Source of the DNA: Armatimonadota bacterium
GTDB lineage: Bacteria; Armatimonadota; Zipacnadia; UBA1398; JAKPQA01
Direction of reading: 5' to 3'
DNA length: 64,000 bases
Assembly (NCBI GenBank): GCA_029547025.1
Contig: JAKPQA010000237.1
Location: 1 to 64,000, forward strand
Shown: in pieces, positions 50,340 through 51,212 of the stretch
Layout of the letters: each line of letters begins with the position of its first letter
Position numbering within the stretch: position 1 is the first letter of the stretch
Program-made: the position numbers and the translations under genes
The notes under the pieces: model-generated
The model's input: the letters and a program-made list of their open reading frames with translations, nothing else
Databases searched by the model: none
Told to the model about the DNA's origin: nothing

Positions 50340-50393
50340 TCAAACCACCCCATCTAGTGACGCGGGACCTGGAACCTTCGCCTCGTGGATGCG

Positions 50394-50434
50394 TCATAAA
50401 GGTATGAGATTGTCTGCCGGGGCATTGCCCCGGC
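50394..50434 (+). promoter_or_regulatory. Leader elements between ileS and the WGN-repeat gene
   Basis: The 113-nt divergent gap holds two inverted repeats. TCATA-AAGG-TATGA lies at 50394-50407, a 5-bp perfect palindrome that also supplies the only AT-rich hexamers in the gap. GCCGGGGC-ATT-GCCCCGGC lies at 50416-50434, a perfect 8-bp hairpin ending 18 nt before ATG 50453. The second could form in the 5' end of the repeat gene mRNA. No clear -35 was found. Function unproven. Confidence 0.35.
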
Positions 50435-50452
50435 GTCTGGAGTGAGCGACGG

Positions 50453-50896
50453 ATGCTCAAGACGTATGCATTCACGGCGATCGTCCTCGGTGTGGCTGCC
50501 GCGTGGACGGCCGGCTCCACGCCGGCATGGGCCCAACTTGTCCTCATGCCTCCGGACGCCAGCGACAACGTGCCGGCGGATAAGGACTCCGTGTGGGAGG
50601 TCATCGAGCTCAAGCACATCGGCGCCGGAAGCGTCGCCCAGATCCTCGGAGGCAGCGTCTTCAGCCTGAACTCTGACCTGATGCTGCTCGGCCGTCAGGG
50701 GACGCCTGGCCGCGGCGGCCGCTCGTGGAACAACGGAGGGTGGGGCAACGGCGGTTGGGGAGACAACGGCTGGGGCAACCGCGGCTGGGGAAATGGCGGC
50801 TGGGGCAACAACCGCTGGGGGAACAGCGGCTGGGGCGCCAACGGCTGGACCCAGAACGGATGGGGGCAAGGCGGATACGGCGGACGCGCCTGGTAG
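50453..50896 (+). CDS. Small secreted protein with secretin-N-like segment and tenfold W-G-N pentad repeat
   Basis: The 147-residue protein has a signal peptide (cleavage near PAWA, residue 27). A short segment WEVIELKHIGAGSVAQILGG (about 48-67) resembles the N0/N1 repeats of secretins. Residues 92-141 are ten consecutive five-residue units of the form W-G-N-x-G, giving a Trp every fifth position. Gly, Asn and Trp make up nearly all of this part. The DNA is ten degenerate 15-bp units (50726-50875). No family known to me has this layout. It stands alone on this strand apart from a small ORF 98 nt downstream. GGAG lies about 10 nt before ATG 50453. Confidence 0.75.
   Translation: MLKTYAFTAIVLGVAAAWTAGSTPAWAQLVLMPPDASDNVPADKDSVWEVIELKHIGAGSVAQILGGSVFSLNSDLMLLGRQGTPGRGGRSWNNGGWGNGGWGDNGWGNRGWGNGGWGNNRWGNSGWGANGWTQNGWGQGGYGGRAW
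50726..50875 (+). repeat. Ten tandem 15-bp units encoding W-G-N-x-G
   Basis: Ten in-frame 15-base units, each starting TGG or TAC-like and usually reading tggggcaacNNCgg. Third codon positions vary (GGC, GGG, GGA, GGT for Gly), so the repeat is kept at the protein level rather than by recent DNA duplication. Unit order by residue: WNNGG, WGNGG, WGDNG, WGNRG, WGNGG, WGNNR, WGNSG, WGANG, WTQNG, WGQGG. Confidence 0.85.
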
Positions 50897-50993
50897 GTGC
50901 GATGGCGGCCAAGGAGCTGCGCCTCGGGCGGCGAACAACACCCCCAGCTGGTTCGGCACTGCGGTGCTGGCCGTGGGACGGGAGTGGTCGCCC

Positions 50994-51212
50994 ATGATGC
51001 TGGTGAAGCTCACCGAGATGGACGACGGCACGGTCAAAGCCGAGACGGCAAGAGCCGTGCTCGGGTTCTTCGAAGACATGACGGTGTCGGATGTCGCCGC
51101 CTTTCTCGTCAAACGCGCGGAGGATGTGGGCGAGACGATCCGTTTCGTCGACAAGTTGGATGAGCCCACAGAGCACATCGACTTCCAACGCCTCATGAAG
51201 CGCAAGTTCTAG
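50994..51212 (+). CDS. Small protein of unknown function
   Basis: The frame gives a 72-residue acidic/basic mixed protein (LVKLTEMDDGTVKAETARAV, then DMTVSDVAAFLVKRAEDVGE, then HIDFQRLMKRKF). It has clear amphipathic helices and high GC at third positions, so it is probably coding. ATG 50994 has GGGAG about 10 nt upstream. The same frame stays coding-like for about 60 nt further upstream (SWFGTAVLAVGREWSP) without an ATG; GTG 50963 is possible. It is in a different frame from the WGN-repeat gene, so it is either a second cistron or the end of a frameshifted longer protein. Confidence 0.5.
   Translation: MMLVKLTEMDDGTVKAETARAVLGFFEDMTVSDVAAFLVKRAEDVGETIRFVDKLDEPTEHIDFQRLMKRKF

Follow-up and report, generated by a model that had tools for sequence, protein, structure and literature searches.

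A short gene with a half secretin N1 motif and a tryptophan-periodic tail, and its relatives across a class of Armatimonadota

The 147-residue frame and its tryptophan array

The window, the whole stretch of 64,000 nt analysed here, carries on its forward strand, at 50453-50896, an open frame for a protein of 147 aa (stop codon counted in the coordinates), with a GC content of 0.62, 0.60 and 0.84 at the first, second and third codon positions. The gene and its upstream region contain the following features.

50371-50395 (+): ECF-sigma-type promoter candidate, GGAACC-N15-CGTC; about 0.02 such sites are expected per 260 nt
50416-50434 (+): hairpin GCCGGGGC-ATT-GCCCCGGC in the presumed leader (leader fold z = -2.3)
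50439-50442 (+): GGAG, Shine-Dalgarno-like on reading the sequence, 10 nt 5' of the ATG
50453-50533 (+): putative Sec-type signal peptide, residues 1-27, read from K3, a hydrophobic core and A-x-A
50585-50680 (+): half-N1 motif, residues 45-76, DSVWEVIELKHIGAGSVAQILGGSVFSLNSDL, from a profile match to PilQ N1 first halves
50681-50725 (+): linker from the motif to the first array Trp, residues 77-91
50726-50875 (+): ten Trp-led pentads, residues 92-141
50876-50893 (+): continuation of the register, with Tyr142 and the C-terminal Trp147

Judged by eye, the signal peptide is likely cleaved after Ala-Trp-Ala, and the homologues have signal-like N-termini too. Searches with Pfam and NCBIfam gave no family match for the 147-aa protein, and the secretin C-domain (PF00263) was absent from it in Pfam. 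We consider the frame a real gene, because a signal peptide, the half-N1 motif and a tail of Gly and aromatics recur in its homologues. The long frames that overlap it in other phases or on the minus strand (for example 50354-51205, -) were judged to be high-GC artefacts. A separate small gene lies 3' of it at 50994-51212 (+), encoding 72 aa from the ATG at 50994 (MMLVKLTEMDD...), with a coding-like GC by position of 0.61/0.31/0.83; its product is 58% identical to a protein from another family of the order, where the two genes are unlinked, and the longer frame enclosing it had no Pfam match.

Tryptophan recurs in the second half of the protein at residues 92, 97, 102, 107, 112, 117, 122, 127, 132 and 137, at a spacing of exactly five. 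The ten pentads extend from 50726, the first base of residue 92, to 50875, the last of residue 141, and Tyr142 and Trp147 keep the register, giving 12 aromatic positions and an array that reaches 50893. A sequence-only reading had described this segment as ten W-G-N-x-G pentads; its coordinates and its Trp period hold, but the exact pentad is found in only 4/10 units, with Gly at the second position in eight, Asn at the third in six and Gly at the fifth in nine, so that Trp alone (10/10) is strict. The tail is 37% Gly and 16% aromatic and gave a lag-5 aromatic autocorrelation of z = 8.2, the top value among 46 homologous tails; in 200,000 shuffles of its 67 residues, none placed all 11 Trp in one phase. 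The proposal of a rare aromatic periodicity is supported.

At the DNA level the segment is a diverged 15-bp tandem array with 74% matches. Between its units pS was 0.51 and pN 0.28, the latter rising to 0.38 when the Trp codons were left out, indicating that the non-Trp positions of the pentads are weakly constrained and drifting. TGG is intact in all ten units, although at the remaining 12 positions of each unit about 26% of bases are off the column consensus, and the chance of ten intact TGG is about 1e-4 (0.74^30) if sites are taken as independent. The earlier proposal that selection acts on the protein thus stands mainly for the tryptophans and much less for the remaining positions; the retention of Trp suggests that the aromatics matter in this protein.

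The half-N1 motif and the split N1 of PilQ

A half-N1 profile matched a profile of PilQ N1 first halves with an hhalign probability of 98.6 (E = 7.5e-16, 31 columns), the two having been built without any common sequence, and it also matched PilQ N1 domains directly. The motif of the 147-aa protein conforms to the secretin N1 first-half type VI.LKY..A..A..FGG.VI. This protein contains the first half of N1 only: the second half (the full Secretin_N model has 69 positions) is absent, and the tail runs to the stop codon. In the PilQ secretin, N1 is a folded alpha/beta domain adjoining N0 (PMC3441751), and from the fold of secretin N1 domains the half-N1 would be expected to form beta-alpha-beta.

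The PilQ gene of this genome (L016:7333-9339, minus strand) encodes an N1 that is itself split, by a Gly/aromatic-rich insertion of 95 residues with 47% Gly and 11 aromatics. Pfam Secretin_N covers model positions 30-69 only in this PilQ (residues 393-433), because the first part of the domain sits before the insertion. N1 insertions of 77-116 aa and 27-47% Gly were found in the PilQs of all relatives examined, where Secretin_N likewise matches the second half of the domain alone. Compared with PilQ (Secretin_N, PF03958; STN, PF07660; Secretin, PF00263), the short protein has a homologous first N1 half, followed in both by a Gly/aromatic stretch, whereas it lacks the N1 second half, the secretin C-domain and N0/STN and ends in its strictly Trp-periodic tail.

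A protein search of the same genome returned one paralogue (C262; E = 7e-7), a protein of 312 aa encoded at L016:9385-10323, with an STN-like region, a half-N1 and a Gly/Tyr/Trp tail. Its gene occupies position X in a pilM-pilN-pilO-pilP-X-pilQ-aroB cluster, in which an NCBIfam match identifies PilM and matches in both Pfam and NCBIfam identify the secretin, while pilN, pilO, pilP and aroB were assigned from position and appearance only. The profile match to N1, together with the placement of the sole paralogue between the gene in the pilP position and pilQ, supports what had been a guess from the sequence, namely a link to a secretin or pilus system. The longer sister shares with the short protein its motif, kind of tail and export signal, but differs in its N-terminal STN-like region, its location in the pil operon and its Gly/Tyr tail, which has some Trp and no strict period. 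The window gene, like the short genes generally, lies outside pil operons, and most of these genes are orphans.

Both proteins look like PilQ cut inside the N1 insertion. The simplest reading of the sequences is a putative origin of both by duplication and truncation of PilQ, the 32-residue motif having too few residues for a tree; the window gene would then derive from the N-terminal part of PilQ, truncated within the Gly-rich insertion of N1. The genome contains seven secretin genes (two in C42, one each in C115 and C262, and three, clustered, in C361), and all seven above-cut-off Secretin matches lie outside the 147-aa protein. Given this number, PilQ is uncertain as the partner, if any.

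Homologues, tails and constraint

In relatives the motif occurs within PilQ N1, in proteins of about 250-300 aa that combine STN with a tail, and in short proteins of about 110-170 aa that consist of signal peptide, motif and tail, as the one from the window does. The STN region of the longer sisters was recognised with E = 2.8e-11 in one protein and 0.0075 in another. The motif was detected in 40 of the 46 genomes of the class at E <= 1e-3, PilQ N1 matches counted too; a wider profile, at E <= 1e-5, found 39 class genomes and 6/245 other genomes of the phylum. Among the loci examined, an STN-half-N1 gene lies directly upstream of pilQ in 14 genomes (overlapping loci of the present genome entered once), and 20 short genes were read. 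The invariant GG of the half-N1 is kept throughout the class. Judging from these sequences, the proteins constitute a previously unnamed, class-wide family, apparently made from half a secretin domain; they match no curated family, and the literature searched gave no description of half-N1 proteins and no published name for the STN, half-N1 and tail protein. The PilQ of this class has its own N1 interrupted by a Gly-rich chain at the position where the half-N1 proteins stop matching the domain.

Crude Nei-Gojobori counts gave a dN/dS of 0.09 for the body and 0.21 for the tail of an STN-type pair, and 0.28 for two short proteins of the same order; a further short pair had 0.41 in the body and 0.57 in the tail, and a pair so close that it differs at few sites had 0.72. 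The STN-type pair and the same-order proteins show purifying selection, and the values, all below 1, bear on whether the gene is simply a non-functional secretin fragment with a drifting minisatellite tail. Its truncated domain, its tandem DNA array and the weak constraint on the non-Trp positions would agree with such a fragment, but homologues in many genera have intact frames, signal peptides and the motif, and in the window gene the frame is open and the Trp codons are preserved; we therefore regard this explanation as largely refuted and very improbable. In three genera of one family (L022, L024 and L025), a gene that appears thiL-like by eye follows the short half-N1 gene, suggesting that gene order around it is conserved in that family.

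Gly makes up 14-69% of nearly all the 46 homologous tails. Their aromatics are chiefly Tyr, and they have 0-4 Trp each as compared with the 11 in the window protein. Strong five-residue aromatic spacing is present in few of them (L083, z = 5.5; L013, 4.9; L012, 3.6; L071, 3.3). A few contain Tyr pentads, the 11-Trp array was seen only in the window protein, and the same-order homologues L007 and L074 have Gly/Tyr tails without the period. Conservation of the repeat in relatives was thus not found, the strict period being no trait of the family. The sequence-only reading had taken homologues without periodicity as grounds for doubting its claim; most homologues are of that kind, but the frame is still real, with motif, signal and tail kept. 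From the tails compared, the five-residue period is best described as a recurrent, unconserved outcome, of which the window tail is the extreme, and the pattern is more in line with a chain of Gly and aromatics under loose constraint than with a particular fold.

The strict register over 12 positions, with its preserved Trp codons, could still denote an ordered repeat, either a beta-solenoid or a row of exposed aromatics with affinity for glycans or peptidoglycan. AlphaFold2, run on the single window sequence, gave a mean pLDDT of 42.7, with a short helix at 58-65, strands too weak to read and no repeat fold, which for a single sequence is weak evidence, the model being too poor to test a solenoid. 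Against an ordered repeat, homologous tails differ widely in length, in period and in which aromatic they use, and the non-Trp positions of the window array drift; the beta-solenoid raised at the outset is accordingly not favoured, and an ordered repeat of either kind seems unlikely. If the half-N1 proteins dock on the secretin, the same variation (Trp here and Tyr elsewhere, period five or none) would supply a natural series on which to examine how sticker-and-spacer chains behave in the periplasm.

Upstream elements and possible roles

GAAC...CGTC with ECF-like spacing occurs within 260 nt upstream of 14 of the 20 short genes, the window gene among them. The spacer is N16 in the other 13 genes and N15 in the window gene, making the latter the weakest case.

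An RNA element of about 75-105 nt, conserved and structured, also precedes 14/20 short half-N1 genes in relatives, this set overlapping with that of the ECF-like sites but not being identical to it. The element consists of a closing stem and a hairpin GAAGG..CCUUC with the loop CCCUCCCU, which is anti-Shine-Dalgarno-like, and many of its copies (L131-L159; for example L141:1446-1551 and L149:333-427) are preceded by an ECF-like promoter. The loop pattern GAAGG-N-CCCTCCCTCC-TTC was found in 28 of the 46 class genomes, one copy each except for one genome with two, and in 1/245 other genomes of the phylum; a reversed control pattern occurred once in the 291 genomes. All 29 class copies have the closing stem. 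For the 12 outer pairs of this stem, pairing is kept in 94% of cells and two-sided changes occur at 11, in a register anchored by hand, which favours the stem somewhat, and with covariation uncorrected for shared ancestry; in 2000 trials re-dealt 3' strands paired at most 75%, and slid registers gave 43-57%. The RNAalifold result and the R1 model are poor, as both came from MAFFT alignments in which the closing stem was out of place. At E <= 5, Rfam returned nothing for the 14 loci searched. The window gene has no such element upstream, the exact loop pattern has no copy in this genome, and an own-genome search with the poor R1 model was empty and carries little weight. Transfer RNA genes, suspected upstream of short homologues from the translated flanks, were not found there, the conserved flank being the RNA element. 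Where no half-N1 gene comes after a copy, its stem often ends in a terminator-like T-run; the element is apparently a half-N1 leader in some lineages and free-standing in others. It is alike in kind to the Caulobacter small RNA GsrN, which is controlled by sigma-T and has a C-rich loop (PMC5869019), with no homology claimed. A covarying RNA beside many half-N1 genes constitutes a separate new lead on regulation in the class.

As to the role of the protein, we tentatively favour, as a plausible reading that we hold with less than full conviction, a periplasmic accessory of the pilus secretin that docks by its half-N1 and carries a flexible, cohesive Gly/aromatic tail. Its architecture, the homology of the half-N1, the matching point of interruption, the paralogue beside pilQ and the class-wide conservation all point this way; from them we infer its location, docking, tail contacts and effect on the secretin. 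The protein would be exported to the periplasm, where the half-N1 may serve as a docking module for the N1 region of the secretin, where its partner would be the second half of an N1 in the PilQ ring, an open edge of such a domain or, alternatively, another half-N1 protein. An incomplete N1 may also neither fold nor bind, and the place of the short genes away from pil operons and the loose constraint on the tail outside Trp weigh against this reading. The tail would behave as a sticker-and-spacer chain, with Trp as stickers and Gly/Asn as spacers, making many weak aromatic contacts with the PilQ insertions or with other tails, much like the PilQ insertions themselves. Most likely the protein would act on the gate of the pilus secretin, stabilising, sealing or tuning it. 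If half-domains do dock on the pore, this would be a new way to build or seal type IV pilus secretins.

FG-repeat nucleoporins are Gly/aromatic sticker-and-spacer chains. The chains described here resemble them, by analogy and not homology, in being flexible and rich in Gly with aromatics at intervals, and some of them, the PilQ insertions, sit on a ring-shaped pore. By extension, a ring of N1 Gly/aromatic chains into which half-N1 proteins plug extra ones, here a chain of Trp pentads, could form a cohesive, pilus-permeable seal within the periplasmic vestibule, a proposal that we consider improbable and offer as speculation; a full-text literature search returned no relevant precedent joining secretins with nucleoporins and FG repeats.

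Docking could also be inhibitory, the half-N1 acting as a decoy that competes with the first half of PilQ N1 for the second half, which would hold back assembly of the secretin when the envelope is stressed. The half-N1 corresponds precisely to the stretch of N1 before the insertion, and the possible ECF-type promoter would be in keeping with such control. We saw no evidence of exchange, however, and for the STN sister beside pilQ a partner produced along with PilQ is the better explanation, so that a decoy appears doubtful.

Less probable than the accessory of the pilus secretin, though a distinct possibility and its main rival, is an autonomous protein of the envelope or matrix, whose tail drives condensation, coating or adhesion and whose half-N1 is a relic or a self-pairing module; a flexible tail of stickers and spacers may cause phase separation or adhesion, as suggested earlier for the array. 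The orphan position of most short genes and the free variation of their tails agree with autonomy, and the ECF-like sites upstream of them would point to envelope stress and not to control with a pilus operon. Against it, a half-N1 with its invariant GG is kept across the class beyond the need of a relic, and the longer sister stays beside pilQ.

An unrelated exported protein with a similar tail would also agree with an autonomous function. Searching a collection of genome contigs with the 147-aa protein returned only a WGNN protein, probably convergent: at L015:2144-2800, a sulfur-oxidising gammaproteobacterial symbiont encodes two exported WGNN/GYG-rich proteins in which, as in the window protein, repeats of this kind follow a signal peptide. 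They lack the half-N1 motif and belong to no NCBIfam family, and their similarity is confined to composition and repeat, so convergence is likely. They are reminiscent of sulfur-globule coat proteins.
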